Virus record (IMG/VR): IMGVR_UViG_3300035670_000559
Coordinates: 1-39,569 of that record
Source: a virus
DNA length: 39,569 nucleotides
Direction: 5' to 3' (one strand)
In this document: piece after piece, positions 14,330 through 32,064 of the stretch
Position numbering within the stretch: position 1 is the stretch's first letter
Layout of the letters: each line of letters opens with the position of its first letter
Translations under genes and position numbers: made by a program
Notes under the pieces: model-generated
What the model saw: only the letters and a program-made list of their open reading frames with translations
Told to the model about the DNA's origin: nothing
The model's database searches: none

Positions 14330-16549
14330 ATGTTAAGAAAAGTCACTCTTCGCCCAGGCATCAACAGAGATACAACGAACTACGCCAACGAAGGTGGGTA
14401 CTATGAGTGCGACAAGATCCGCTTTTACTCTGGGTATCCACAGAAGCTAGGCGGCTGGGTCGAGGCAACGCCAGAAAGATTCCTGGGGACTTGCCGGCAG
14501 CTCTGGAATTGGGTTACGTCCTACACGGATAACCTGTTAGCGGTTGGTACGGATCAAAAGGTCTACATCGAGGTAGGTGGGATCTTCTATGACATCACGC
14601 CCATCCGTAACCCGCTGGCATCTCCAGATCAGGAATACACGTTTAAGACCCCGACGACAGATAACTGTATCGACACGACCAACGGGTCAACCACGGTCAA
14701 CATAAACATCACTGGGCACGGATGCCTGGTAGGTGACTACATCACAATAGCTGGGGCGACAGACGTAGGCGGCATACCTAGTGCAATCCTCAATGCCGAG
14801 CACAAAGTTACCGAGGTAACGGACAACGACAACTTTAAGTTCGTAGTGTCTTCTGCGGCCACATCAACCGTAACTAACGGAGGTGGGACTGCAATATTTG
14901 TAGGGTGTCAGATACATCCAGGCTTTCCTCTTCAGACAGCAGGTTATGGCTGGGGAACTGGAGGATTCGGTGGTACAACCGGTTTATCCGCCATTGGAAC
15001 GTTTACAGTTACCGTCGCATCCCCAGCGGTTCTTACCTTTGCAACGCACACCCCCGTAGATAACACCGTAATCATTCTAAGTACAACCGGCGCTCTTCCT
15101 ACAGGTTTATCTGCTGGTGTGGCGTATTACATCGTTGGAGCATCTGGTAGCACGTGTAGCCTGGCGCTCACCCAAGCAGGAGCCTCGATCAATACGACAG
15201 GAACTCAAAGCGGGACCCATAGTGCTCAGATTGTAGCTTCTCCAACTGGATGGGGCCTGGCTAGTCCGTTGCCCGTATATCTACCTCAGCGTGATTGGTT
15301 TTTTGATAACTTTGACAACGACCTGGTAATGAACATCCGGGCAGTAACTACTGGTACAGGAATAGCTACTGGTGGCCCAATCTATTACTGGGTTCGTGGT
15401 ACGACGGTTAACGCCCAGGCTGAGCTAAGCACCAGAGCCGTCTTGTTGTCTGGACTAACCATTGATGGAGTGGCCCCAGCCGATGTTCCTGAATCCGCTT
15501 ACCAAATACTTGTCTCCCAGAATGATAAGCATCTTCTGGCTTTTGGATGTCAGCCATATGCAGGAACTACAGGTGAGTTCGATCCTCTTCTGATTCGCTG
15601 GGCTACCCAGGATCAGCCAAACGTATGGACGCCGCTACTGACTAACTCGGCTGGATTCATCCGGGTATCACGTGGATCAAGGATTGTCCGTGCGCTGCCG
15701 ACCAGGCAAGAGATAATTGTTTTTACAGATACCCACGTTTATAGCTTCCAATTCCTAGGCACCATCGAGGTATTCGGCCTTCAGGAGCTGGCAGACAACA
15801 TCTCGATCATGTCCCCACGGGCCTGTATCTCCGTGAATAACGTGACGTACTGGATGGGGCTGGATAAGTTCTATGCCTATGATGGCCGGGTTCAGACTCT
15901 TCCATGTACGCTCAGAGAGTACGTCTTCAAAGACATTAACCTGGATCAAGCAGATCAAGTTATCTGCGGGACGAACGAGGGATACAACGAAGTCTGGTGG
16001 TTCTATTGCAGCGCAAACTCCAACTGGATTGACCGTTATGTAGTCTTCAACCACCTAGAGAAAGTCTGGTACTACGGGAACATGGTCAGAACGTCTTGGC
16101 TCGATGTCTCTTCCAGGGACTATCCAACAGCGACCTACACCGATGAGAATCAAAACCCAGGGGTGCTATACACCCATGAGGTAGGAGTAAACGACGGTGA
16201 TCTCCCGATGGAGTCATTCATCCAGTCGTCAGACTTTGACATCGAGGACGGTGAGAAGCTGATGTTGACCAAGCGGATGATCCCGGACGTTAACTTCCGT
16301 GGATCTACGGCAGCAAATCCAGAAGTAACCATGGCCATACGGGCTAGAAACTTTCCAGGTTCTGCGTTTACCAACAATGCTTTGAACGAAAAACCGGTCA
16401 TCCAGACTTCTATTGATCAGTACACGGAGCAGGTATTTATTCGTGCCCGAGGCCGGCAGATGGCCATGCGGATCAGCTCAGATGGGCTTGGGGTGCAGTG
16501 GCAGCTAGGTAATCCCAGGATCGACGCCAGAGAAGACGGCAAGAGATAA
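14330..16549 (+). CDS. Tail nozzle / stabilisation-like structural protein with inserted domains
   Basis: A 739-residue protein. The N-terminus VTLRPGINRDTTNYANEGGY with YYECDKIRFYSGYPQKLGGW, and the C-terminal half (IVFTDTHVYSFQFLG, VTYWMGLDKFYAYDGRVQ, NEVWWFYCSA, RYVVFNHLEKVWYYG), have the repeated aromatic strands of a beta-propeller, like P22 gp10 or T7 gp12-type tail proteins. Two separate modules appear inserted: about residues 105-190 (ITGHGCLVGDYITIAGATDV ... GGGTAIFVG) and about 220-305 (ATHTPVDNTVIILSTTGALP ... TGTQSGTH); both look like FCCH-type accretion domains. Role: distal tail tube or plug. Assigned from pattern; exact family unverified. Confidence 0.7.
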   Translation: MLRKVTLRPGINRDTTNYANEGGYYECDKIRFYSGYPQKLGGWVEATPERFLGTCRQLWNWVTSYTDNLLAVGTDQKVYIEVGGIFYDITPIRNPLASPDQEYTFKTPTTDNCIDTTNGSTTVNINITGHGCLVGDYITIAGATDVGGIPSAILNAEHKVTEVTDNDNFKFVVSSAATSTVTNGGGTAIFVGCQIHPGFPLQTAGYGWGTGGFGGTTGLSAIGTFTVTVASPAVLTFATHTPVDNTVIILSTTGALPTGLSAGVAYYIVGASGSTCSLALTQAGASINTTGTQSGTHSAQIVASPTGWGLASPLPVYLPQRDWFFDNFDNDLVMNIRAVTTGTGIATGGPIYYWVRGTTVNAQAELSTRAVLLSGLTIDGVAPADVPESAYQILVSQNDKHLLAFGCQPYAGTTGEFDPLLIRWATQDQPNVWTPLLTNSAGFIRVSRGSRIVRALPTRQEIIVFTDTHVYSFQFLGTIEVFGLQELADNISIMSPRACISVNNVTYWMGLDKFYAYDGRVQTLPCTLREYVFKDINLDQADQVICGTNEGYNEVWWFYCSANSNWIDRYVVFNHLEKVWYYGNMVRTSWLDVSSRDYPTATYTDENQNPGVLYTHEVGVNDGDLPMESFIQSSDFDIEDGEKLMLTKRMIPDVNFRGSTAANPEVTMAIRARNFPGSAFTNNALNEKPVIQTSIDQYTEQVFIRARGRQMAMRISSDGLGVQWQLGNPRIDAREDGKR

Positions 16550-18428: not shown

Positions 18429-19235
18429 ATGGGCGGAACGGTAAGTAACGCAATTAATCAGTCTGGGTTGCCTAACGCAATCAACCAGGCTGGGTTTCAA
18501 CAGCAGCTTGGCCGGGTATCTAACCAGATGTACCAGCCGCCCAGTCAAATGGGTGGGTACGACCCATACACCGCTATGCGTCGGCCTAACTACATGCCGT
18601 ATGGTCCAAACCAACAGTTCTATCAGCCGATCTACCAGCCTAGCTATTCCCAGTTCTCCCCGTTTGGTTACGGCCAAGCTCCTTTTGGTGGGTTCTATCA
18701 GCCGCCGATGATGGGAATGATGGGCAGGGGGCTTCAGATGGGTGGCCAGAGAATGGGTATGGCGCCTGGTGGGATGGATACAAACTACGGGGACTTTGAT
18801 CCAAGGTTTAGGTCGCAGCAATCAAACATGCTTTCTGGTCAAGCAACATACCTAACCGACCAGTTCCAGCCAATGATGCCGCCACAACAAGCGCAGCAAC
18901 AAGCATATTCAATTCCGTATTCAAATGCACAGCAAAGCTCTGGCGGTTTTTTTAAACGACGCATTTCTGGTGCTTTTGACAATCGACGGAATCAGTCAGC
19001 GCCTCCTTTTGCTGATAACTACGGACAACCCATGCTATCCCCGCAGCCAGTGCAGACTCAGTATCGTCCCATTCCAATAGCAAGCCAAACTTCAATAGAT
19101 CAGATAAAAGCTCAGGCTATGCAAGAAGGTGTAAACCAAGGTATGTCTATGGCTCAATCTTCTTATGGTGGTGGCGGTGCCAAAGCAGGTGGCAAGGTAG
19201 AAGACGACGGTATCGCTTCTTTGCTGAAGAAATGA
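18429..19235 (+). CDS. Gln/Gly/Pro/Met-rich virion-associated protein
   Basis: A 268-residue low-complexity protein rich in Gln, Gly, Pro, Tyr and Met (PNQQFYQPIYQPSYSQFSPF). It has no recognisable fold and is probably largely disordered. The C-terminus GGAKAGGKVEDDGIASLLKK is a conserved tail also seen, in related form (GGEVKEGIDSLALKKAMKK), in the 509-residue gene 1.9 kb downstream. Placed in the ejection-protein cluster; role unknown. AGGAGAT precedes the ATG; the end overlaps the next gene as ATGA. Confidence 0.65.
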   Translation: MGGTVSNAINQSGLPNAINQAGFQQQLGRVSNQMYQPPSQMGGYDPYTAMRRPNYMPYGPNQQFYQPIYQPSYSQFSPFGYGQAPFGGFYQPPMMGMMGRGLQMGGQRMGMAPGGMDTNYGDFDPRFRSQQSNMLSGQATYLTDQFQPMMPPQQAQQQAYSIPYSNAQQSSGGFFKRRISGAFDNRRNQSAPPFADNYGQPMLSPQPVQTQYRPIPIASQTSIDQIKAQAMQEGVNQGMSMAQSSYGGGGAKAGGKVEDDGIASLLKK

Positions 19236-19663
19236 ACCTAAACATCCAGGTTGTAGATACAAACTACATCAGCCAGATTTGGAATCAGGTAGACCAGTAT
19301 TTAATAGACGCACTAATAAAAGATAACGACGCCCCTGACTGGAGTAACTGTTACAACATTCATCATGTCCAGGGGTTTTTGACTAGCGGTATGTGGTTGT
19401 TGTTGGTCGCGGTAGATGAGGAAGGAAAGATCCACGGTGCCGCAACAGTGTCATTTGCGAACTATCCGATGGCCAGGGTAGCGTTCATCACACTGATAGG
19501 AGGTCGGATGATCTCCAATAGCAATACGTTTGAGCAGCTTAAGATGATTCTAAAGCAGCGCGGGGCGACAAAAGTCCAAGGGTACGGTAGAGAATCTATC
19601 GTTCGATTGTGGAAGAGATACGGCTTTGAGCCACGAACTACTTTAGTGGAAGCTCCATTGTGA
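19232..19663 (+). CDS. GNAT-like acetyltransferase-fold virion protein
   Basis: A 143-residue protein resembling a small GNAT fold: a beta strand pair around WLLLVAVDEEGKIHGAATVS (55-74), the strand AFITLIGGRMIS, a helix TFEQLKMILKQRGATKVQGY and the end strand VRLWKRYGFEPRTTLVE, typical of the C-terminal GNAT strands. The canonical acetyl-CoA loop (Q/RxxGxG/A) is not clear, so catalysis is uncertain. GNAT-like proteins occur beside ejection proteins in podovirus genomes. ATGA at the start and GTGA at the end couple it to both neighbours. Confidence 0.55.
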   Translation: MNLNIQVVDTNYISQIWNQVDQYLIDALIKDNDAPDWSNCYNIHHVQGFLTSGMWLLLVAVDEEGKIHGAATVSFANYPMARVAFITLIGGRMISNSNTFEQLKMILKQRGATKVQGYGRESIVRLWKRYGFEPRTTLVEAPL

Positions 19664-20112
19664 AAGGCGAAGGAAAGTTAGAATGGTTTGGTGGCGATCA
19701 AAACGCCTATAACTTGTTCCAAATGTTTATCGAGTTGTCTCATACGTGGGATGACATTGTTGATAAAGACAAAGAGGTTTCTGAGGACCAAGTTAACAAT
19801 GCGTTTTTGATTGCACTTGTCTACATGCCATCTAATCCGTTTTACCAGCGTATTCAATCGGCTATCTTGCCAATGTGGATACCAGTTGTTTCGGCCTACA
19901 AGACAGCCAATAAGTTTGAGCAAGACAAAGACGAGCATGGAATTGAGATTGCTCACAATTTAAGATATGCAGCAGGCTACATAATTTCTTACATGGTTCA
20001 TGTTTGCGTTGGCTACGAAAAGGCCCAAGAATTTATGCCTGATGTATGGAAGGCTGTTGTTTTTGAGCGGTTTGATGATTACCGCAAGGAGCATTTAAAT
20101 GCTGTTCGCTAA
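19660..20112 (+). CDS. Small all-alpha protein with DDxxD motif
   Basis: A 150-residue protein predicted largely helical. Residues 23-40 read FIELSHTWDDIVDKDKEV, followed by NNAFLIALVYMPSNPFYQR, LPMWIPVVSAYKTANKFEQD and LRYAAGYIISYMVHVCVGYE. The DDxxD in a helix resembles the first metal motif of isoprenoid synthases, but the chain is half their usual length and a second motif is not evident. I recall similar uncharacterised proteins in related phages at this same position. The start is GTG in a GTGA overlap. Function unknown. Confidence 0.65.
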   Translation: MKGEGKLEWFGGDQNAYNLFQMFIELSHTWDDIVDKDKEVSEDQVNNAFLIALVYMPSNPFYQRIQSAILPMWIPVVSAYKTANKFEQDKDEHGIEIAHNLRYAAGYIISYMVHVCVGYEKAQEFMPDVWKAVVFERFDDYRKEHLNAVR

Positions 20113-21628
20113 ATACCTTTCTCACTTATACCAAGGCGCCGATCATCGCGGGCAGAGAGTTTATAACGTTGGCGGCGGTGGCGGCGGTGGCGGCGGTCAC
20201 ACTACCAGCACGGTCACTCAACAGTCCATCCCTGATTGGCTACGCCCACAGACCGAAGCGCTTCTTGGTGCTGCAACACAAGAGACCTTCCAGACTCAGA
20301 AGACTCCAGAGGGCACCTACGAGATCACTGGTGTTAAACCATTCGTTCCTTATAGCGCAGATCCCCGCGATTACTTTGCTCCGTTCAGCCCCCAACAGCA
20401 GCAAGTGATGTATGAAGCATCACAGATGCAGCGGCCTGGTGGGTTTGGTGTCGGCCAACAAATGGTTGGTGGTGCTGGTATGGGCGGCATGGGAAGCGCT
20501 GGTGCAGCATATGACTACGGCCAGATGGGAACCAGGTATGGTGGCTTAGGTGCTGGCTATGGAATGATGGGTGCTGGCATGGCCCCTGAAGCCCAGATGT
20601 ATGGCCGTACCGCAGCAGACATTGGTGGCATGGGTCTCCGTGCAGAAGAGCTTGGCCGTGACGTAGGAGAAGAGGCCCGTCAGTATGCTCGTCAAGCAGC
20701 AAGCATGGGTGGTACCTATGAACGCATGGCAACAGACCCACGGTCTATTCAAGCCTATATGTCACCGTATCAACAAGGTGTCACAGAGGTTGCCAAACGC
20801 AAGGCGATTGATGACGCCCAACGTGCTCAGCTCGGACAGAATCTTGGAGCGGTACGGACAGGTACTTATGGTGGTGCTCGGCAGGCTCTTCTCCAAGGAC
20901 AAAGGGAAGCCGGCCTACAACAGCAGCTCAGCGACATCCAGGCTCAAGGACTCCAGCGGGCGTTTGAACAAGCTCAGCAGGCACAACAGTTTGGTGTTAC
21001 GGCTGGTATGCAGGGACTTCAGGGTGCCCAGGCTGGGCTTGGAACCGCTCTCCAAGGTGGTCAACTTGGACTCTCTGGTATCGGCCAGGCAATAAGTGGT
21101 CAAGAGGCTGGGCTTCGTGGACTTGGTCAGGCCGGTCAACTCTATGGTCTGGGTATGCAGGGCGCTCAAGCAGGTATGCAGGGGGCCGGTGTTGGACTTC
21201 AAGGAGTCCAAGGTGCTCAGGCTGGATACGGCCTTATGGGTCAGATGGGCCGGTCACTTGCGGATATTGCTCAGCAACAGCAGGCAGCAGATCTATCGCG
21301 GATGCAGTTCCAGCAGCAGGTAGGTGCAACGCAGCAAGAGCAGCAGCAACAGATGATCAATCAGGCTATCCAGAATTATGCGATGGCGCAGCAGTATCCG
21401 CAGCAGCAGCTTGCCGCATACAACGCCTTACTACGTGGATACCAGACACCGGTCACTACAGTATCTCAGTACCAGGCTTCCCCAAGCCCCGTCTCTCAAC
21501 TTGCTGGTCTTGGACTCACGGGCGCAGCAGCATACGGCATGGCAACCGGCAAGAAGAAGGGAGGCGAGGTTAAAGAAGGTATAGACTCCCTAGCACTGAA
21601 GAAAGCTATGAAAAAGGTGGCAGCATGA
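20099..21628 (+). CDS. Gln/Gly/Ala-rich internal (ejection-type) virion protein
   Basis: A 509-residue protein. A nine-Gly run (25-33) follows a short N-terminus; next comes QSIPDWLRPQTEALLGAATQ, then PFSPQQQQVMYEASQMQ. About residues 180-300 are an amphipathic helical part (EEARQYARQAASMGG, LQQQLSDIQAQGLQRAFEQA). Residues ~300-400 are quasi-repeats of LQGAQAGLG-type units. A Gln-rich segment and the tail GGEVKEGIDSLALKKAMKK end the chain. This layout is one I recall for presumed DNA-ejection proteins. AAGGAG stands before the ATG, which overlaps the upstream gene by 14 bases. Confidence 0.7.
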   Translation: MLFAKYLSHLYQGADHRGQRVYNVGGGGGGGGGHTTSTVTQQSIPDWLRPQTEALLGAATQETFQTQKTPEGTYEITGVKPFVPYSADPRDYFAPFSPQQQQVMYEASQMQRPGGFGVGQQMVGGAGMGGMGSAGAAYDYGQMGTRYGGLGAGYGMMGAGMAPEAQMYGRTAADIGGMGLRAEELGRDVGEEARQYARQAASMGGTYERMATDPRSIQAYMSPYQQGVTEVAKRKAIDDAQRAQLGQNLGAVRTGTYGGARQALLQGQREAGLQQQLSDIQAQGLQRAFEQAQQAQQFGVTAGMQGLQGAQAGLGTALQGGQLGLSGIGQAISGQEAGLRGLGQAGQLYGLGMQGAQAGMQGAGVGLQGVQGAQAGYGLMGQMGRSLADIAQQQQAADLSRMQFQQQVGATQQEQQQQMINQAIQNYAMAQQYPQQQLAAYNALLRGYQTPVTTVSQYQASPSPVSQLAGLGLTGAAAYGMATGKKKGGEVKEGIDSLALKKAMKKVAA

Positions 21629-23148
21629 TCGGAAGCACACTCAGCCGTGTTCAGACGGCAGAAAAGCTCAGCATCCCGCAGCTTCAGCAGGCCATTCAGT
21701 CTGGGACTATCCCGGCCTATATGGGCGTCCCTCTTTTGGAAGAGAAGATCCAGTTTGAACAGAGGATGCGTTCAGCCGCAGCAGCCCGCATGGCCCAGGG
21801 TCAACAGCCCACTATTGCCGAACAGGTCATGGACCAAGCTCAAATGGTTGAGGGAGATGGCGGCATAGATCAGATCCCTATTGAGACACCAGAGTTCGCA
21901 GGTGGTGGCATCGTAGCGTTTAGCGCGGGGGACAAGGTTCAGTCCGATGAGATGCTCCTGGAACAAGCCATCAATTCCTTGGTGCAGCGCGATCCGTCTA
22001 TCAATGCCAACTTTATTCGGCAGGCATATGCAAGTGCGCCACCTGAAAGACGGGAGCAACTCCTTGCTCAGTTAAGAGACAGCGAATCGGCAAAGTTTGC
22101 GCGTCAAGGAACAGGCGTTCCAATGGCCCCCAATCAGGGGATTGCCGGCGCAGACATGGATAGGGAAGCAGCCAAGTTTGCTCGGCAGGGTGTAGGTGTG
22201 CCAGGCACTCCTCCTAAAGACACAGGCATTGCCCCCGAGATGGATGAAGAGAAACCCATGCCTGATGCTGGTATCTCTTCCATTCCTATCTCCCCGATCA
22301 TTCAGCGGGCTGGTGAGATGGCAAAGGCCCTCCGTGGGACTGAAGAAGCCACCCCGATTCCGACCATTGAAGAAGCTGGTAAGCAGACAAGCGAACTCCT
22401 CAAAGCATCTGGATATGACGAGAACGTTCTTGGAAACATCCAGAAAGAGATTGCATCGCAGCGTGAGTCCTTGGCTAAAGATAAGGTCGAGGCACGTAAC
22501 TTCCGTCTCCTTGAGATGGGCCTTGGGATCATGGCTGGCACATCGCCTAACGCCTTTGAGAACATTGGCAAGGGCGCAGCACCTGGCTTGAAGGGACTTG
22601 CCTCAGACATTAAGGATCTACAGAAGGCTGAACGTGAGTTCAAACTGGCTGAGCAGAACCTTATGCTCAAGAAGAATGACGCTGCCATGGGTAAAGCCAA
22701 GATCACCCAGGACACTATTGATAAAGCCCAAGATCGGGCTGATAAGAAGGCTGAGAGGTATGACCAACTCAAAGCAGATCTTGCCAAGACGATGCTTACC
22801 ACTCAAGCACAAGAGCAATTGGCTCGGGCGGCATATGGTTCAAAACTTACGGACTACGATAAGAAGTGGGCTAGGTATGTCCAAGAAGCCAAGGCTAACG
22901 GTGAGACACCGACTTTCTCAGGGTTTGAACAGGCTATTCTTGAACCCCGTGGTGCGTTAACATTTAGGCAGGCCCTGTCTATTGCAGCGCAAGATAAGAC
23001 ACTGACAGCAACAGAAGTACAGGCCCAGGCAGAAAAACTATTGGAGGCTGATAGGCTTCGCAGGGAAAGAAATCCACAAGGATCGCCTGCCAGATCGTCC
23101 GGCACAACGCCACCTCTACCACCAGGATTTGTTCTACAAGGAAGATAA
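21625..23148 (+). CDS. Internal (ejection-type) virion protein
   Basis: A 507-residue protein. The N-terminus has LQQAIQSGTIPAYMGVPLLE, PTIAEQVMDQAQMVEGDGGI and EFAGGGIVAF, a signature I recall from presumed internal virion proteins of aquatic phages. Two copies of a KFARQGxGVPxxP segment occur at about 157 and 184. About residues 265-410 are long charged helices (likely coiled coil, KAEREFKLAEQNLMLKKNDA). The C-terminus is Pro-rich. It is coupled by ATGA to the previous ejection-type gene and followed by the giant polyvalent gene, so the three probably enter the cell with the DNA (inference). Confidence 0.7.
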   Translation: MIGSTLSRVQTAEKLSIPQLQQAIQSGTIPAYMGVPLLEEKIQFEQRMRSAAAARMAQGQQPTIAEQVMDQAQMVEGDGGIDQIPIETPEFAGGGIVAFSAGDKVQSDEMLLEQAINSLVQRDPSINANFIRQAYASAPPERREQLLAQLRDSESAKFARQGTGVPMAPNQGIAGADMDREAAKFARQGVGVPGTPPKDTGIAPEMDEEKPMPDAGISSIPISPIIQRAGEMAKALRGTEEATPIPTIEEAGKQTSELLKASGYDENVLGNIQKEIASQRESLAKDKVEARNFRLLEMGLGIMAGTSPNAFENIGKGAAPGLKGLASDIKDLQKAEREFKLAEQNLMLKKNDAAMGKAKITQDTIDKAQDRADKKAERYDQLKADLAKTMLTTQAQEQLARAAYGSKLTDYDKKWARYVQEAKANGETPTFSGFEQAILEPRGALTFRQALSIAAQDKTLTATEVQAQAEKLLEADRLRRERNPQGSPARSSGTTPPLPPGFVLQGR

Positions 23149-23157
23149 AGGTTAATT

Positions 23158-26100
23158 ATGCAGAGAGCAGTCAACCCCCAAACTGGTGAGGTACTGTTCC
23201 TTGTTAATAACCAATGGACCGCCCCGTCACAGACCGCGAGGAATCCGGACTCAGGCCAAATGGCCTATTTGGTTAATAACGAGTGGCAGGTCCTAGATCC
23301 GTTTAAAGAAGAAGAAAAGGGTTTCCTTGAGTCCGTCTTTGGAGTAACGCCAAAACAGTTTGCTGAAGCGGCCAAGCCAGAGTCTTTTACCGGGGAAGTT
23401 CTTGACGTTCCTCTTAAAATTGCTGAAGGGACTGTATCAACTACCCGCGCTATTACGGAAGCATTTGGTGCCAATAATGCTGCTGCCCAAAACATTCGTG
23501 GCGTAGAGAAGTACCTTGCTGAACTAGCGTCTGCACAGTCCAAACAGGACTCTCAGGCGATTGCCGCCATCATGAAGGATGCGGAAGACAAGGGACTTGG
23601 TGAACAACTTAAAGCCGCGCTATCTGCATTTGCCACGGCTCCGGTTGACTTCCTTGCTCAAGCTGCTGGATCGTCCGTTCCTATTCTGTTGGGCGCCGTT
23701 GCTGGTGTGCCAGGCTTAGTTACCACCGCTGGATTGACGGGCGCTGGCGTAGTCAAAGGCACGATATATGACACCGTCAAAGAAGAACTCAAGAAGGCCG
23801 GCGCATCAGAGAAGGAAGCTGAAGAGCGGGCTATAGCTGCTCAAGAGTACGGCGGTGAAAACCTTGACATGATTCTTGCCGGCACAGCTCTTGGTGCTGT
23901 TGCTGGTAGGACGGGCGTTGAGAAATACATTCTTGGAAAGATCGCGGCAAAGCAAGCGGCTCAACAGGCTGCTCAAAAGGGCGCTGTTCGTCAGGCGGTA
24001 GAAACCGGCGTAACAGAGGCTGTTCCAGAAGCTATTCAGGCTGGACAAGAACAATTGGCGGCTAACATTGCTGCTCAAAGAGAAGGGCTTGATGTACCAA
24101 CATTCCGAGGCGTAGCTGGTCAGGCTGCATTAGAGGCTATTGCAGGCGGTGCTCTGGGTGCTGGTATTGGAGCTGCTGGTGAAGCCGGTCCTGCCGCTCC
24201 TCCTACCCCTCCTGCCGCAACCCCGCCCGCTGCAGCTTCCCCTCCTACAGCCGCACCGACGCCTGCTGCACCACCAGCCGCAGTTACTCCTGTAACTCCC
24301 ACAGGCGCTGCTCCTGGGGCCGCTCCAGTCGTACCTCTTCCCCCAGGTCCAGACCTACTTGGTGGATATGCAGACGCTGGAAACAACGTCGAGGTGAGGA
24401 TAACTCCAACACCGGATGGAAGGTTCCAGGTCATATACGTAGATGGAACCTCTGGGCAGTCTTCTGATGCCGGTATATTCGATGACTTCGATAGCGCCAA
24501 TTCAACGGCAGCAATGCTCGTTGGTGTAAACCCAGCCACCTTTGCTCCGCCAACAGCGCCAACACCTCCTGTTGCAACAACCCCCACTCCACCCACAACG
24601 CCGGTTTCAACGACGCCTACGCCGCCCACGGTTCCTGTTGGTACTACGCCGACACCACCGACCGGTGTTCCACCTACTTCGGGATTAACTCCTCCCACTA
24701 TCCCAACAGGCACGACGCCTGGTGTTCCACCTACGATAAAGCCGACGGAGTTCACGCCGGAAGAACAGCAAGCTCTGGATAACTATTTTCAGGGGCAGGT
24801 ACCAAATGCTCAGACGATATTCCAGAACCGCGATAGGTCCGGAAAAGGGTCGGTTGCTCAGATGCAGAAGATTGCATCAGCACCAGACTACTCACTTGTT
24901 GGCCCGTCCAAGGTATTGGCTGAAGGCGCTCCTGTAATCATCAGTGACATAAACATCCCAAGTGAGTTTCTTGGACGTACTGATATGGCCACGGCGTCTA
25001 ATGGGCAGAGATTCCCAGTTCGCTATGCAGTCGTACCGGCAACAGAAGTGTTTACGTCTAACCTTGCGGATGGAACAGTCAATCCATTCTACGGAGACCT
25101 GAGCGTTCCTGGTATCAGGGCCGTCGCTGGCAATGGTCGTATCGCTGGAATACAAGAGGCATACAACCGAAAGACGACAGATAAGTATCGCAATGAACTA
25201 ATAAACGATCCTTCTCATGGTGTCAGTCAAGAAGTCATCGCTGCCATACCAAACCCTGTTCTCGTTCGGATCATGCCGAAAGGATTGGTACCAGAGAATA
25301 TTGGCGACCTATCAAACGTATCTGGTATCGCTGGGCTTGAACCTGTAGATAGGGCAAAGAACGATCTCAATAGGCTTGCTGGTAAGTTCGACCTTACTGG
25401 TTTGCAGTTCACTGAAGAGGGAGTCCCGCAGCTCTCTACTCTGAGACAGTTCATCCAGGCCATGCCGGAGAGTGAGCAGTCAGAGTTAATTAACAAGTCC
25501 ACCGGGCTTCCAACCCCAGAGGCTAGTGCTCGACTGTTAAACGCCATCTTCTATGGCGCCTATGAGAATGACGCGCTTATAGATCTGTACGCAGCAACCA
25601 CGAACCCAGATGCAAAGATGTATCTCAACAGTCTGGCTAAGGTTGCTCCGAAGATGGTCAAGCTATCAGGGGCGGGCGATTACGACATTCGCTCCAAGGT
25701 TGTAGAGGGTATTGAGAACCTTGTATCTGCTGTACGCCAGGGCGTTCCTATCAAGGAGATGCCCAACTTTGTGAAGCAGGGCGCTATTGGATTAGACCCA
25801 TATGCCCAGAAGATCATGGAGTTCATTGCTGACAGTGGGCGTTCTACCAAGCGCATTGCTGAAGGGCTTTCTCGTCTTGCCGATGCCGCCATGGATGCAA
25901 GCCAGGTATTGCAAGAACCAGATATGTTTGGGCAAGTTCCTCCTCGGCCTACGCTAGATCAGGTCTTTGAGTCTCTTAAAGAAATAGAACAAGAGCCAGA
26001 TTTATTTGGTGAACCTACAGAGGTCAAACCGCCCGAGCCGCCAGCTCCAAAAGAGGTCAAGTTTTCTATTGATAAAAATTCTCCGCAAATTTACCAAGAG

Positions 26101-29100
26101 ATAAAAAATTTAGACGTTATAGGTCTTGCTGGCTGGGCTAAAGACAATGCTCCAAACGAACTTGCAAAAGAAGTTGCCACTAAGATTGAAAACCGCTTAA
26201 AAGATTTTGCTTCTCGCAATATAGAAATGAAGGGTCCAACCATTTTAAATAACTCTAGAAGGGTGAAGGGTTATGCTGGAATGGTTAAGTTTTCAAGAGG
26301 CAAACTTGGAATTAAGTTTGAATACAAATTAAACGGTTTAGAAGACAACAAAGCTGCTTACGTTCAAAATGGATTGGAGTATCAAGTAATTTTGCATGAG
26401 CTAGTTCATGCTGCGGTTGTTGCTCAAACATACGGCCTTCCAACGTCAGATCCAAGAATCAAAGACCTAGAATCTCTTAGATCAGAAATTAGAAAAAAAT
26501 TTATAAATGATTTAAAGAACAATAAATTTGACCCACTTGTAGATCGAGAAAAAATATTTAACATTCGATACGCGCTACAAAATATAGATGAGTTTTTGGC
26601 TCAAGGATTGTCTGATGGAGACACTCAAAAATATTTAAAAGATATACAAGTAAGCAAAAATTTCAACGCGTTTGGGAAACTCGTTGACATAGCTCGACGC
26701 ATACTTGGACTTCCCCAAAACACAACCTCTGGGCTAGAGGCTTTGTTAGACGCGTCCGACAAACTACTTTCTAGCTCGTTAATAGAATTAGATAGGGACT
26801 TATTAGCTGGTGGAAAAACTCAGATTGCAAAACTTTTAAAAGACACAGAGGATAAAAAAGAACTTGTCACCATAGATTTTGCAAGCTCTCAACCAGGCCT
26901 CTTTGGTGATGACGCCAAGACTCTTAATCAGATAAACGAAGAGCTTCCAAAGGCTAAGAAGAAGCTACCTCCTGGGCGTTCACCTGAGCTTGCTGCCATG
27001 GCTGAGCAGCTCCAGGCTGGCCTGCTTACCAAAGAAGAGTACGACGCAGCGGTCAACAAGTATCGTCCTATCCCTGTCTATACAGAGCCGCTTGTCCCTG
27101 CGACCGATGAGCAAGTAATTGATGCTTTGTATTCAAACCAGCAGCCTAAAGCCAATATATCAATTCCTACCGGAACCAAAGTTGGCCTACGCCTAGACAT
27201 TCCTGCCTGGAACCGCAAGAAAACTTTTGTTGTCGCAATCCATGAGCCAAGAAAATCAATGAAATCAGGTGGTGCTGGCCTTGCTCTTGGATACAGAAGT
27301 GTTGCTATGGCCAAGAACGTAACGTTCGGTTTGGGCAATCAAGAGAAAGCACTGGAAATTGCGGTTGGTGCTGGCAAGGATGCTCTTCAAACCATGGAAG
27401 GGGAGTACATCAATGTCTCTCCAGAAGAAGCATATCGCATGGCGCAACAGGCCATTAAAGATCCACGGTACGTACAGATAGGATTTGACCCTGTTAGGCA
27501 CTCTTACTTCTTTGATAGGGCTACTACTCTCCCAGTGGTCAAGGCCGAAGAGGTTCTCCAGATCGGTAACATGATCCTGGCCCGTGGCGTTGAGTATGGC
27601 TCCAAGCAGAACTTCCTCTACAACATTGATGCTCAGGCCCAGTTGTTTGGTGGAGACGAGGCCAAAGTATTGAAAGAAGCCGAAGGTACGCTCCCAGAGT
27701 TTAAAGTTGTTACAAAGGGCCGTTCCCCTGAGCTTACAGAGGCGGCAGAAAAGCTACGTAAGGGCGAGATCACCAAAGAGGAATATGACGCTGCCGTCAA
27801 GAAGTACAGCCCGGTTACGTTGTATGCTGAGCCTCCAAAGCCCCCGAGCGATCAAAAGATAGAGGAAGCGCTAGACAAGAATAAGAAGCCGTATGCAAAC
27901 CTTGAATTAGATACGGGCACAAAGGTTGGTCTAAGGCTGGACATTCCTGCTTGGGAGAACAAACAGACCTGGGTAGTTGCTATCCACTCCCCCAAGCCAA
28001 CGCTGACCTCTCCCAAGGCAAGCAAGATCCTAAGTTACCGAAGCGCTGCCAAGCTCAAGAACGTCAAGTTTGGCGTTGGAAACCAAGCAGCCACGCTCCG
28101 TATTGCGGCAGGTGACTTCAAGGACAAGCTCCAAACTATGGAAGGCGAGTACGTAAGCGTCTCTCCAGAGGAAGCATATAAGCAGGCTCAAGAGTTAATT
28201 AAAGACCCGGCATATATCCAGATTGGTTTCAATCCGACTCGTCATGCGTATTTCTATGACCGCGCCACGATGACTCCCGTTGTCAGTGCTGATGAAGTCT
28301 TGCAGATTGGAAACTTTATCCTGGCTAAAAACGCCAAGTTTGGATCGAAGAGCGACTTTCTGTTTGACGTTGATCGGTATCCCCAGGTAACTGAGGAGCA
28401 GGTAGATGCTGACATAGCCCAGACCAGGGAAGAAAAGATTGCTGAGTACACCCGTCTCCGTGCCAAGCGCAGCCAGCTAGTCAAAGAATATGTAGCCCAG
28501 GGTCCAAGCATTGAATTGCAGCGCAACATTGCTCTTACAGATGAGCTTGCCAAGCAGCTCAAAGAAGACATTGATGCCACCGCTGAACCCTCCCGTAGCC
28601 CTGAGAACTTCCTGCGTCGTGCTCTTGATGCCTATGAGAAGGGTGATCTTAGCCCAGAGGTGTTAGCGACTATCCGTGATGCGTATGTTAAGACTCCGTG
28701 GGTTCTGAATGGTCTGCGTCTGTCTGTCAGGAAACCAAAAGAAGACAAGTCTTCAGGAAACTTCCAGCCTTTTGCTAGGGTGGTGACTCTATGGAATGGA
28801 ACGTCGGGGATTGAAGATCCTTCTACTGTCCGGCACGAAATCATGCACTCGCTTGAACAGATGATGACCGCTGAACAGAAGAAGGTTGTCCTGGATTCCT
28901 GGAGAAGCGCCTTTGATGCGGCGGTCAAAAAGAACAAAGATGCTCAGTCACAGTTGTTCTTCAAGAATGTCATCGAGTTCTTAGACACTCCTAGTGATGC
29001 GTCCTTTGCTGCGGCTGTCCAATCCATGCCGTCTTATGACTTCTATCAGTACCTCAGTCCGTCTGAATATTGGGCGATCAATGCTGAGAAGCTCTTTGCT

Positions 29101-32064
29101 GCCAAGCTAGGTACTCAGTGGGAGCGGTTCAAGTCTGCGATACGTAAGCTCGTTGAGTCCATGAAGAAGGTCTTTGGATTTGATAACCGTCTTGGCGTAC
29201 ACAAAGTCTTTGATCGTCTGATGAAAGATCAGCCAGAGCGCATGGATAACAAGTCTCTCGTAGACTTTGTTACAGAGACGGGTGTTCGGGCGATGGTTCC
29301 CCAAAATGTCAGCAAGAATATCTTTGGTCAGCCGATGCCCAAGGCGACCTGGGGATCTCCTGATGATTCGAAGATTGACGACATCATCTACGTTCTACAA
29401 GACAAGAACATTGATACAAAACGGGTGGTTCAAGCAATCACCTCGCAGCGTAAGAGTCTGATTGACTCATGGAACCCGTATCTCCAAGAGGAGTTGTATC
29501 ACGGCAGGACGGCTAAACAGACAGAAGATTTCTTGAAGGATGAGCTTGAGCCGTTGATGAAGGCGCTGCGTGATCGCAATCTAACCATGGATCAGGTAGA
29601 AGAGTACTTACAGAATCGCCATGCTGAAGAGCGCAACATCCAGAACGCTAAGCGTGATCCGACCATGCCTGACGGTGGATCAGGAATCCTCACGGCAGAC
29701 GCTAAGAAGTATCTAGCAGCTCTTACTCCGAAGCAGAAAAAAGACTTTGACGACATTGCCAAGATGGTTGATGACATCGTTAAGGGAACACAAGACCTTA
29801 TCGTCTCCAGCGGCCAAGAGAAGCAAGAAGTAATTGACAACTGGAACAAGGCTTACAAGCACTACGTTCCGCTGAACCGGGAAGAAGCTGACTACGATGT
29901 CAAGAACGTTGGTGTCGGCGTAGGGTCTGGTTTTGCTATCAAGGGACCGTTTAGCAGGGCATCTGTAGGATCTGGACGTAAGGTTGTAGACATCCTGGCT
30001 AACGTTGCTATGCAGCGGGAGCGGGCCATCATCCGGGCAGAGAAGCTCCGTGTGGCCAAGGCTGTCTATGCTCTGGCGGTGACTAATCCCAATCCTGGGT
30101 TCTGGTTGCCATACGATCCTTACATCAAGAAGGATCCGCAGCAAGTCCTCAACGATCTCATTTCCATGGGAATCAACCCAGCGGACGCGCAGAACATTGC
30201 CAACACGCCGACTCGCAGGGATGTTGATCCGGCAACCAATACAGTCAAAGAGGTTCCAAACGAGCGGTTGATCACAAGCGCACTGTCTTTGCCTATCCGC
30301 ATCAACGGAGAAGAGAAGTTCCTAATCTTTAACTCCAACGATCCTCGGGCAGTTCGGATGGTGGAGTCGTTGAAGAACCTGGACGTTGATCAGCTCAGTA
30401 AAGCACTGGGTGTCTCTCAGGCGTTCACGCAATACTTTGCCAAGATCAATACCCAATACAACCCAGTCTTTGGTTTGTGGAACTTCATGCGCGACGTTGG
30501 AAGTGCGGCGTTGCAATTAAGCACGACACCAATTGCCGGCAAACAAAAACAGGTTTTGGCTGGGATTAGGCCTGCTCTACGTGGCATCTACGGGGAGGAA
30601 AGGGCTCGCAGAAAAGGTCAGCCACCAACGAACCATCCATGGGCGCAGCTCTGGGAAGAGTTCCAAAAAGAAGGTGGACAGACCGGTTTTAGGGATATGT
30701 TCAGCCGCAGCCAAGAGCGGGCAGAAGCGCTACAACGAATCCTTGATCCATCCTCCTGGACGACAACCCCACTTGGAAAAGTTGTTACAGCAGGCGGGAC
30801 GCTGAAGGTGCCAGCAGAGTTGGCTCGTAAAGCAGCCACCCCACTCTTTGACTGGTTGTCTGACTATAACCAGACGATGGAGAACGCGGTTCGTCTCTCT
30901 GCGTATAAGGTAGCGCTCGACCAAGGCATGACCAAGCAGCAGGCAGCATCAGTGGCCAAGAATCTTACGGTGAACTTTAACCGCAAGGGACAGATTGGGC
31001 GGCAGATGGGCGCTCTGTATGCGTTCTTCAATGCCTCTGTCCAGGGTACAGCCAGGATGTATGAAACGCTCAAAGGTCCTGCCGGAATAAAAATTATCGG
31101 TGGAGGACTTCTCCTTGGATCTCTTCAGGCGTTTGCTCTTTCCATGGCTGGGTTTGATGAGGATGAGCCACCTGAGTTCATAAAAGAGCGGAACATTGTT
31201 CTGCCGACAGGTGGGTCCAAGTACGTAATGATCCCGATGCCACTGGGTTACAACGTCATACCCAATACAAGCCGTATCGTTACAGAGTGGTTCCTATCTG
31301 GGTTCAAAGATACGCCCAAGCGAATCAGCAGCATCTTCTCGGCTACGCTTGATATGTTCAACCCGCTTGGCAATGCGGGATGGTCGGCTCAAACGATAAC
31401 GCCCACTGTCCTAGATCCTGTTATTGCTCTTACGGAGAACGTAGATTGGACTGGTAAGCCAATCGCCAAGGAAGACATCTCTGGGCTTGATCCTACGCCT
31501 GGATACACACGGGCTAGAGAGACGGCCAGCATCGTTGGCAAGGGTCTATCTGAGTTCCTGAACTATGCTTCTGGTGGAACAAAGTACACCCCTGGAGTAG
31601 TGAGTCCCACCCCAGATCAGATTGACTACCTGATAGGGCAGTTTACTGGTGGTGTTGGTCGAGAGTTCATGAAGGCAGAACAATCTCTTCGTAGCCAAGT
31701 TACAGGTGAGGATCTGCCGATCTATAAGGTGCCGCTGTATGGACGGATTGTGGGTGACACCCAGGGCCTTGCTGCCGAGCGTAATCGCTTCTACAACAAC
31801 ATCATGCAGCTCAATAAACATGAGCGGGAGATCAAAGGTAGACGCGAAAACCGGGAGAATGTCCAGGAGTATCTAATGGACAACCCAGACGCCAGGCTCT
31901 TCTCTTACGCCAATCAGGTTGAGCGTAACCTCCAGGCTCTGCGTAAGCGCCGGGATGCTCTGTTAGAGAAGGATGCCCCGAAGGAGCAGGTCAAGGCGGT
32001 AGAGAACCAGATCGCTGTCCAGATGAAGCGGTTCAACGACAGGGTAGCGGCAGCTCAGAGATAA
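23158..32064 (+). CDS. Giant polyvalent protein: ParB-like, two zinc peptidases, duplicated module, LPD38
   Basis: A 2968-residue protein, 22% of the window, last of the putative ejection genes. In order: two NPxxGxxxxLVNNxW units (5-45); hydrophobic Gly/Ala segments (161-201); Pro-rich linkers (about 344-400 and 464-535, the latter with TTPTPPT repeats) around a small folded part; a DdrB-like ParB-superfamily domain (about 550-870) with VAGNGRIAGIQEAYNR (GNGR at 658-661); an AT-rich insert with zinc motif HELVH (1080-1084) and candidate ligand E1145; two tandem ~248-residue modules (1273-1744); a second zinc motif HEIMH (1893-1897) with E1970; and a C-terminal LPD38-like region (about 2430-2640, NPVFGLWNFMRD, NFNRKGQIGR, YAFFNASVQG) plus a hydrophobic helix (2643-2666). 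Such proteins are thought to be injected and to act early in the host. No N4-type virion RNA polymerase motifs seen. Confidence 0.8.
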   Translation: MQRAVNPQTGEVLFLVNNQWTAPSQTARNPDSGQMAYLVNNEWQVLDPFKEEEKGFLESVFGVTPKQFAEAAKPESFTGEVLDVPLKIAEGTVSTTRAITEAFGANNAAAQNIRGVEKYLAELASAQSKQDSQAIAAIMKDAEDKGLGEQLKAALSAFATAPVDFLAQAAGSSVPILLGAVAGVPGLVTTAGLTGAGVVKGTIYDTVKEELKKAGASEKEAEERAIAAQEYGGENLDMILAGTALGAVAGRTGVEKYILGKIAAKQAAQQAAQKGAVRQAVETGVTEAVPEAIQAGQEQLAANIAAQREGLDVPTFRGVAGQAALEAIAGGALGAGIGAAGEAGPAAPPTPPAATPPAAASPPTAAPTPAAPPAAVTPVTPTGAAPGAAPVVPLPPGPDLLGGYADAGNNVEVRITPTPDGRFQVIYVDGTSGQSSDAGIFDDFDSANSTAAMLVGVNPATFAPPTAPTPPVATTPTPPTTPVSTTPTPPTVPVGTTPTPPTGVPPTSGLTPPTIPTGTTPGVPPTIKPTEFTPEEQQALDNYFQGQVPNAQTIFQNRDRSGKGSVAQMQKIASAPDYSLVGPSKVLAEGAPVIISDINIPSEFLGRTDMATASNGQRFPVRYAVVPATEVFTSNLADGTVNPFYGDLSVPGIRAVAGNGRIAGIQEAYNRKTTDKYRNELINDPSHGVSQEVIAAIPNPVLVRIMPKGLVPENIGDLSNVSGIAGLEPVDRAKNDLNRLAGKFDLTGLQFTEEGVPQLSTLRQFIQAMPESEQSELINKSTGLPTPEASARLLNAIFYGAYENDALIDLYAATTNPDAKMYLNSLAKVAPKMVKLSGAGDYDIRSKVVEGIENLVSAVRQGVPIKEMPNFVKQGAIGLDPYAQKIMEFIADSGRSTKRIAEGLSRLADAAMDASQVLQEPDMFGQVPPRPTLDQVFESLKEIEQEPDLFGEPTEVKPPEPPAPKEVKFSIDKNSPQIYQEIKNLDVIGLAGWAKDNAPNELAKEVATKIENRLKDFASRNIEMKGPTILNNSRRVKGYAGMVKFSRGKLGIKFEYKLNGLEDNKAAYVQNGLEYQVILHELVHAAVVAQTYGLPTSDPRIKDLESLRSEIRKKFINDLKNNKFDPLVDREKIFNIRYALQNIDEFLAQGLSDGDTQKYLKDIQVSKNFNAFGKLVDIARRILGLPQNTTSGLEALLDASDKLLSSSLIELDRDLLAGGKTQIAKLLKDTEDKKELVTIDFASSQPGLFGDDAKTLNQINEELPKAKKKLPPGRSPELAAMAEQLQAGLLTKEEYDAAVNKYRPIPVYTEPLVPATDEQVIDALYSNQQPKANISIPTGTKVGLRLDIPAWNRKKTFVVAIHEPRKSMKSGGAGLALGYRSVAMAKNVTFGLGNQEKALEIAVGAGKDALQTMEGEYINVSPEEAYRMAQQAIKDPRYVQIGFDPVRHSYFFDRATTLPVVKAEEVLQIGNMILARGVEYGSKQNFLYNIDAQAQLFGGDEAKVLKEAEGTLPEFKVVTKGRSPELTEAAEKLRKGEITKEEYDAAVKKYSPVTLYAEPPKPPSDQKIEEALDKNKKPYANLELDTGTKVGLRLDIPAWENKQTWVVAIHSPKPTLTSPKASKILSYRSAAKLKNVKFGVGNQAATLRIAAGDFKDKLQTMEGEYVSVSPEEAYKQAQELIKDPAYIQIGFNPTRHAYFYDRATMTPVVSADEVLQIGNFILAKNAKFGSKSDFLFDVDRYPQVTEEQVDADIAQTREEKIAEYTRLRAKRSQLVKEYVAQGPSIELQRNIALTDELAKQLKEDIDATAEPSRSPENFLRRALDAYEKGDLSPEVLATIRDAYVKTPWVLNGLRLSVRKPKEDKSSGNFQPFARVVTLWNGTSGIEDPSTVRHEIMHSLEQMMTAEQKKVVLDSWRSAFDAAVKKNKDAQSQLFFKNVIEFLDTPSDASFAAAVQSMPSYDFYQYLSPSEYWAINAEKLFAAKLGTQWERFKSAIRKLVESMKKVFGFDNRLGVHKVFDRLMKDQPERMDNKSLVDFVTETGVRAMVPQNVSKNIFGQPMPKATWGSPDDSKIDDIIYVLQDKNIDTKRVVQAITSQRKSLIDSWNPYLQEELYHGRTAKQTEDFLKDELEPLMKALRDRNLTMDQVEEYLQNRHAEERNIQNAKRDPTMPDGGSGILTADAKKYLAALTPKQKKDFDDIAKMVDDIVKGTQDLIVSSGQEKQEVIDNWNKAYKHYVPLNREEADYDVKNVGVGVGSGFAIKGPFSRASVGSGRKVVDILANVAMQRERAIIRAEKLRVAKAVYALAVTNPNPGFWLPYDPYIKKDPQQVLNDLISMGINPADAQNIANTPTRRDVDPATNTVKEVPNERLITSALSLPIRINGEEKFLIFNSNDPRAVRMVESLKNLDVDQLSKALGVSQAFTQYFAKINTQYNPVFGLWNFMRDVGSAALQLSTTPIAGKQKQVLAGIRPALRGIYGEERARRKGQPPTNHPWAQLWEEFQKEGGQTGFRDMFSRSQERAEALQRILDPSSWTTTPLGKVVTAGGTLKVPAELARKAATPLFDWLSDYNQTMENAVRLSAYKVALDQGMTKQQAASVAKNLTVNFNRKGQIGRQMGALYAFFNASVQGTARMYETLKGPAGIKIIGGGLLLGSLQAFALSMAGFDEDEPPEFIKERNIVLPTGGSKYVMIPMPLGYNVIPNTSRIVTEWFLSGFKDTPKRISSIFSATLDMFNPLGNAGWSAQTITPTVLDPVIALTENVDWTGKPIAKEDISGLDPTPGYTRARETASIVGKGLSEFLNYASGGTKYTPGVVSPTPDQIDYLIGQFTGGVGREFMKAEQSLRSQVTGEDLPIYKVPLYGRIVGDTQGLAAERNRFYNNIMQLNKHEREIKGRRENRENVQEYLMDNPDARLFSYANQVERNLQALRKRRDALLEKDAPKEQVKAVENQIAVQMKRFNDRVAAAQR
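26974..28390 (+). repeat. Tandem duplication of a ~248-residue module in the giant protein
   Basis: Copy 1 runs from 26974 and copy 2 from 27718, a period of 744 bases. Matching anchors are GRSPELAAMAEQL / GRSPELTEAAEKL, TKEEYDAAVNKY / TKEEYDAAVKKY, TGTKVGLRLDIPAW in both, LQTMEGEYINVSPEEAY / LQTMEGEYVSVSPEEAY, and RHSYFFDRATTLPVV / RHAYFYDRATMTPVV followed by EVLQIGN. Protein identity is high but DNA has diverged, so it is a retained, not fresh, duplication. I know similar segments from other large phage proteins but no function for them. Confidence 0.9.

Follow-up and report, generated by a model that had tools for sequence, protein, structure and literature searches.

A giant phage protein with interchangeable cargo and an N-terminal leader that co-varies with the C-terminal tail of its upstream neighbour

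Introduction

The closest described systems are the LPD38 polyvalent proteins (Iyer 2017), among them gp69 of Burkholderia phage JC1 and the giants of Stx-converting phages. In these proteins LPD38 lies at the C-terminal end and is combined with a variable, multi-domain cargo, and the gene is the last large one of the late region, placed after a gene for a protein of about 400–600 aa. Presence in the particle has been documented for JC1 gp69, from which 51 unique peptides were recovered in CsCl-purified virions (PMC9144972). Among the domains found in polyvalent proteins, the DdrB-like ParB domains are predicted to be NTP-regulated nucleases, and the zincins may either self-process or act on host proteins (PMC5512222).

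Three other systems offer parallels. In N4 (Schitoviridae), vRNAP is an ejected protein, gp50-NTD associates with gp51, which is encoded just upstream, and the gp51 C-terminus and gp50-NTD have been proposed to form an inner-membrane complex (PMC12633501, preprint). In the myovirus P1, DdrB combines the same ParB family with a C-terminal metallopeptidase (PMC5512222), and DarB is a giant head protein that is believed to enter the cell and has an N-terminal capsid signal of 30 residues (PMC9024508). Finally, the ejection proteins of podoviruses (T7 gp14-gp15-gp16, P22 gp7-gp20-gp16) are encoded in a late operon with the largest last, and domain swapping between such proteins is known (PMC8954989).

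Little is known of the way in which a 300-kDa multi-enzyme protein is chosen by a phage, packed in few copies and threaded into the cell. We analysed a viral DNA stretch of 39,569 nt, a separate IMG/VR virus record called hereafter the window, which encodes a giant protein with the layout of the LPD38 family. We estimate at roughly 70% the probability that this giant comes last among the ejection proteins of a short-tailed phage and is the largest of them, that it is made of a carrier and a cargo, and that it docks via a leader at its N-terminus. A preliminary description of the window had proposed an anti-defence or takeover protein delivered in the virion. This is in essence the hypothesis already published for polyvalent proteins (Iyer 2017); the description passed over the putative docking leader and the C-terminal chassis, by which delivery is best explained.

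Results

The giant gene closes a late ejection cassette

The frame of the giant is free of stops over its 2968 codons and occupies 22.5% of the window, in agreement with the single polyvalent gene, holding a fifth of the stretch, that had been described before. Its features are listed in Table 1. Relatives in the same genomic slot range from 1100 to 4000 aa. At least two domains of disparate activity are present in the polypeptide, ddrB-ParB and LPD38 as detected with Pfam, together with two zincin sites.

Table 1. Features of the giant gene and of its surroundings in the window
Feature	Positions	Strand	Details
P22 gp10 / LUZ24 gp56-like virion protein	14330..16549	+	739 aa; phrog_3287, E 1.2e-53; tblastn
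Gly/Gln-rich virion-cassette protein	20099..21628	+	509 aa; homologues in 96 loci
Upstream ejection-type protein, putative partner of the giant	21625..23148	+	507 aa; homologues in 60 loci
Putative docking tail	23110..23145	+	last 12 aa of upstream gene, PPLPPGFVLQGR; LPPGF[VI] motif
Giant polyvalent protein, probable virion protein	23158..32064	+	single open frame, 2968 aa
Putative docking leader	23158..23307	+	aa 1–50; NPxxG...LVNNxW twice (aa 6–20, 29–43)
N-module, Ala/Gly-rich	23383..24177	+	aa 76–340; one hydrophobic stretch, 170–194 (hydropathy)
Low-complexity linker, Pro/Thr-rich	24190..24777	+	aa 345–540, from sequence; holds cargo-swap boundary
DdrB-like ParB domain	24814..25272	+	aa 553–705; Pfam PF18763
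GNGR motif of ParB domain	25129–25140	+	aa 658–661
Zincin metallopeptidase 1	26038..26847	+	aa 961–1230; HELVH 26395–26409; third ligand E1145
Duplicated module, copy A	26923..27633	+	aa 1256–1492
Duplicated module, copy B	27667..28377	+	aa 1504–1740
Zincin metallopeptidase 2	28555..29346	+	aa 1800–2063; HEIMH 28834–28848; PSEYWA Glu E1970
C-terminal chassis	29350..32061	+	aa 2065–2968 (904 aa); includes LPD38
LPD38	31162–31737	+	aa 2669–2860; PF18857

Upstream of the giant, the gene order is tail-fibre genes, the 739-aa 'stabilization/particle' relative, small virion-cassette genes and two genes for proteins of about 500 aa. Homologues of the cassette genes recur beside the giant in many of the loci compared, in 49–96 of them for the better conserved genes. 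The slot directly upstream of the giant contains an SLT peptidoglycan transglycosylase domain in three loci (L107, L111 and L159), which fits the expectation for an ejection protein crossing the cell wall. Directly after the giant come an exonuclease and then an Erf-type annealing protein, and these recombination genes mark the end of the late region. The giant is therefore encoded among late, virion genes, as judged from the phrog_3287 protein and the ejection-slot neighbours. Its position after ejection-type proteins, noted previously, was confirmed, since the neighbours make up a late ejection cassette (gp10-like virion protein, SLT slot), and the giant, a polyvalent protein of this cassette, is probably present in the virion. 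Among the scanned proteins of the window (1–39569), none was recognised as a terminase, a portal or a major capsid protein; the record probably represents part of a genome, beginning within the late genes.

Among isolated phages the window is of a rare kind, with no match at the DNA level. At the protein level they matched the last 900 residues of the giant only, with 27–44% identity among the matches listed, and the LPD38 region of the Stx phages shares just 27–28% identity with that of the window. A search of PDB sequences with the whole giant returned zero matches. The cargo also differs from that of JC1 gp69, which has lytic transglycosylase and helicase-type domains, whereas the window giant has ParB, two zincins and a tandem module.

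The order of parts follows that of N4 gp50: an N-domain, a low-complexity linker, the cargo, an HExxH domain and a large helical C-domain. However, the cargo of gp50 is an RNA polymerase, for which the window giant has no domain: the best stretch for PHROG 2206 (N4-type vRNAP) covers aa 966–1207 only, that is, the zincin region, and zincin 1 itself is homologous to the N4 zincin (N4 vRNAP 2222–2323, E 2.5e-8). A relationship of the chassis to the N4 C2 domain was rejected on sequence (hhalign probability 0.5%). The PDB sequence file contains N4 CTD sequences. As homology between the chassis and the C-domain of N4 is below detection, the resemblance to N4 extends to layout only.

The N-module had no Pfam match and was absent from isolated phages. 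Its profile matched 58 of 62 proteins, a set biased by the way it was selected, because the first relatives had been picked by a peptide inside this module. As a universal feature it was ruled out, since few proteins selected through the chassis carry it.

Enzyme domains and the duplicated module

The assignment of a DdrB-like ParB domain and an LPD38 end, made earlier from the sequence, was upheld by Pfam, with both above cut-off. The ParB domain scored 55.7 bits (cut-off 27.6, E 6.9e-15), and R661 of its GNGR motif, the conserved active-site arginine, was present in eight out of eight relatives. For zincin 1, the residues H1080, E1081, H1084 and E1145 were invariant in 31/31 non-redundant relatives; for zincin 2, H1893, E1894, H1897 and the PSEYWA glutamate E1970 were invariant in 12/12. 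Motif residues and third ligands being conserved in this way, the HExxH motifs are not due to chance. The two peptidases were also linked to each other by hhalign. The motifs lie where the preliminary description had placed them (GNGR 658–661, HELVH 1080–1084, HEIMH 1893–1897), and the unknown module that it saw twice is a true tandem, with 57% amino acid and 59% DNA identity between the copies. Its count of at least five separable activities was too high: membership of an enzyme superfamily applies only to ParB and the two zincins, LPD38 has the appearance of a structural chassis, and no function has been assigned to the duplicated module. As for the roles of the ParB and zincin parts as cargo, they would follow from family membership, which accommodates anti-defence and other early functions alike.

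The number of module copies is still changing among near relatives, being one in L003, L004 and L005 and two in L002. An AF2 model of the module together with peptidase 2 (mean pLDDT 73) had no PDB match at a Foldseek E ≤ 0.001, and the module profile gave chance-level matches only against PDB. Many polyvalent proteins contain the module (26923–28377), and a weak match connects its C-terminal half with mycobacteriophage L5 gp82 / phrog_586. The module is possibly a common small phage domain.

The zincins could alternatively serve in head assembly, before infection, by cutting the giant or other virion proteins. P1 DdrB is indeed processed before packaging, self-cleavage by the DdrB peptidase being the mechanism that Iyer et al. 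propose (PMC5512222), and the second zincin of the window lies right at the border between cargo and chassis. However, N4 vRNAP enters the particle uncut although its zincin is homologous, and many chassis proteins have no second zincin, so that cleavage at this place is not a universal release step. We consider an assembly role possible but rather unlikely. A conserved N..G..P motif just ahead of the chassis was considered as a cleavage site and ruled out, since it is present also in proteins lacking an adjacent zincin; for the same reason it is probably part of the chassis.

The middle of the giant is exchanged in blocks

Comparison with L004 revealed a replacement of the central part. The two giants match over aa 1–458 (92%) and again over aa 1237–2968 (about 86%), but between aa ~460 and ~1237 L004 carries RadC in place of ParB and zincin 1. 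One boundary of the swap is located inside the Pro-rich linker, the other just ahead of the duplicated module. In L060 the order is reversed, the duplicated module preceding zincin 1. Together, the RadC block and the reordered module indicate that the middle of the giant is exchanged in blocks.

A C-terminal chassis with a fixed position

LPD38 was detected with 144.1 bits (cut-off 27, E 6.8e-42), over positions 5–188 of the 189-position Pfam profile. It is part of a longer region, the chassis. In about 170 relatives, taken from viral contigs and from host genomes, a profile of aa 2065–2968 located this region at the extreme C-terminus or close to it. The distance to the C-terminus was always 0–15 aa in the viral proteins, about 100 in number; in host-genome proteins it was no more than 60 aa in 65 of 73, with a median of 6 aa. 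The sequence ahead of it spans 0 to 3279 aa and holds domains that differ by phage (ART, RadC, ParB, InPase, MuF-C, glucosaminidase, helicase, methylase). In L128, L144, L158 and L094, just 240–400 residues precede the chassis, giving near-minimal forms. We found no description of this terminal position in the open-access literature, and one may exist elsewhere.

An AlphaFold2 model of the chassis built with 70 relatives was confident and mainly helical (pLDDT 80, pTM 0.78). With Foldseek at E ≤ 0.001, it matched no PDB entry and 73 viral models, several of them named LPD38. Against PDB sequences, the chassis profile gave chance-level matches only.

The C-terminal region, having neither a PDB structural homologue nor a known function, might itself be an effector, kept at its place by ancestry and not by a role in packaging or ejection. 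This appears unlikely to us, because the region accompanies the very different cargo domains listed above and because in a few proteins it stands nearly alone, as a carrier would.

Proteins with an N-module but without detectable LPD38 fell into four groups, of which two have a diverged chassis (hhalign 99.5%) and two are unrelated. L045, L047 and L059, as well as the group L008/L009/L026, combine the same N-module with C-terminal regions unrelated to the LPD38 chassis; these appear to be alternative chassis types. Sequences with archaeal labels carry the chassis too, with 42–44% identity (L063, Methanosarcina virus MetMV; L183, Ca. Nitrosotalea MAG; L184, Ca. Methanoperedens MAG), so that the chassis is in use among archaeal tailed viruses unless these records have been wrongly assigned.

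Leaders and tails co-vary

The first 20–50 residues of the giants, the leaders, failed to align between phages. They often consist of a tandem repeat of a short peptide, a self-repeat at P ≤ 0.01 being found in 43% of 86 non-redundant N-termini versus 3% of internal windows. The repeat units of the window leader are NPQTGEVLFLVNNQW / NPDSGQMAYLVNNEW. Each leader type accompanies one type of tail, defined as the last 10–35 aa of the upstream protein, and for some leaders no partner tail was recognisable. The putative partner of the window leader (aa 1–50) is the tail peptide TPPLPPGFVLQGR. A C-terminus LPPGF[VI] occurs only in phages whose giant has an NPxTG leader, and nowhere else in 4336 ORFs. 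Examples of pairs, to which further types can be added, are NPxTG..LVNNxW with LPPGFV, FDPDxYL with WANxNPxDPRA, FDxFD with xxKFG/KYG, IVDPF with NPGVSDADL, and YPQYxDL with DPLGLR. A split WW-like fold formed by LPPGF and NPxTG...W was ruled out, as Pfam gave no WW match.

For the test of co-variation, the leader was restricted to residues 2–32, which excludes the N-module shared among giants. Among loci with unrelated outer segments, 61 pairs were similar in both leader and tail, compared with 6.1 expected, and none of 1000 permutations gave more than 16. The pairing had been noticed in viral contigs, and host-genome loci (prophages), fetched separately, served as a held-out set: cross-pairs with these gave 17 matches versus 1.9 expected (maximum 12 in 5000 permutations). 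The type of the leader therefore predicts that of the tail across phages with unrelated flanks. Fourteen motif families had at least one leader/tail match despite unrelated flanks; this is the safer count, because loci inside one family are not mutually independent and the permutations take account of this in part only.

Leader and tail could co-vary merely as adjacent DNA, moved in one recombination block, the two proteins having no contact. Both elements lie within about 230 bp, and a direct case of joint exchange was observed. L003 and L004 are about 90% identical up to a point some 22–39 residues short of the upstream gene's end, and the same level of identity resumes at residue 32/52 of the giant; the block in between (213/232 bp) is exactly tail plus leader, replaced as a unit. 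Relative to the window, L003 differs at the DNA level only up to about aa 51 of the giant. The segment ahead of the tail, or pre-tail, also correlates somewhat with leader type, the probability of a similar pre-tail being 0.15 given a similar leader, versus 0.01.

Several observations argue against this explanation, in addition to the excess that remains with unrelated segments on both sides. If simple linkage of adjacent DNA were the cause, every junction should be affected to the same degree, whereas the other tandem junctions of the same loci showed no excess, with 1 match versus 1.7 expected at the next junction upstream and 3 versus 1.1 at 229 other tandem junctions. In L195, the matching tail is kept two genes upstream of the giant, across an inserted gene of 503 aa (L195:2750–4261). 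In L004 the pre-tail is unlike that of the window, yet the tail LPPGFVIQGR is retained.

Finally, the two motifs of one pair were found in opposite genes. In L023, L078 and L096, GYRFxGGxP...W ends the upstream protein and the giants have PWEKY-type leaders; in L113 and L173, the GYRF-type motif lies at the start of the giant, and the upstream tail contains a PWE[KR] motif. Neither the GYRF nor the PWEKY pattern occurred anywhere else among the 4336 ORFs. A generic score for reciprocal swaps was not significant (P 0.13), so that the evidence from polarity lies in the specificity of the motifs, which were chosen post hoc. Taken with the other junctions and the L195 insertion, it makes co-variation by mere adjacency quite improbable.

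In the open-access literature, including that on LPD38 polyvalent proteins, no description of the leader/tail pairing was found; an earlier one may exist elsewhere.

Discussion

We propose that the first ~50 residues of the giant dock onto the C-terminal tail of the upstream ejection protein, so that the giant would follow it out of the virion. The association of gp50-NTD with gp51 in N4 independently backs this reading (PMC12633501), as the JC1 gp69 peptides do for presence in virions; for entry with the DNA, the argument is one of analogy with these two proteins. The N-module and the long Pro-rich linker would tether the giant, while the middle part (ParB, zincin 1, duplicated module and zincin 2) would be an interchangeable cargo acting in the host cytoplasm. 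The 904-aa chassis would be the constant element, most probably serving in packaging or in the unfolding and refolding that accompany ejection. Given the N-terminal capsid signal of P1 DarB, however, the packaging signal could be the leader and not the chassis. Compared with the T7 and P22 ejection proteins, which share its late position at the end of the series, the window giant is two to five times larger, has an enzyme cargo and appears to be linked to its neighbour by a kind of tag.

That the giant is a DarB-type anti-restriction machine, injected chiefly as a protection of phage DNA against host restriction, is very doubtful, for although the ParB family and a metallopeptidase are shared with P1 DdrB (PMC5512222) and PHROG 10089 ('DarB-like antirestriction') matches aa 1884–2244, that match is limited to the second peptidase and the chassis start, Pfam finds in the giant neither the methylase nor the helicase of the DarB dyad, and DdrB is described as aiding the addition of DarB to the capsid (PMC9024508).

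Beyond the window, we lean towards seeing in the docking pairs an interchangeable code. At least 14 types, one per phage, would be carried on mobile cassettes of ~220 bp, at least one of them in both polarities, and would plug giants with different cargo onto the same ejection machinery. The giant would carry the leader, single or repeated two to three times, and the ejection protein encoded before it would carry the matching tail at its C-terminus; if this is true, the number of leader repeats would determine the number of ejection-protein subunits engaged per giant.

For the selection step of delivery, a co-varying docking pair is a concrete and testable answer, as it specifies which residues of which two proteins are concerned. 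It also provides a simple rule for linking giants to their ejection proteins, and may supply pairs of peptides that occur in nature and are distinct from one another, along with a constant chassis for exchangeable cargo. The present analysis also corrects labels of the kind 'DarB-like antirestriction' where the chassis alone matches.

One of the smaller genes of the cassette deserves mention. The 143-aa protein encoded at 19232–19663, with homologues in 45 cassette loci, is by its appearance a putative GNAT acetyltransferase, and genes annotated as acetyltransferases lie close to the slot of the giant in JC1 and Roseobacter phage CRP-901.
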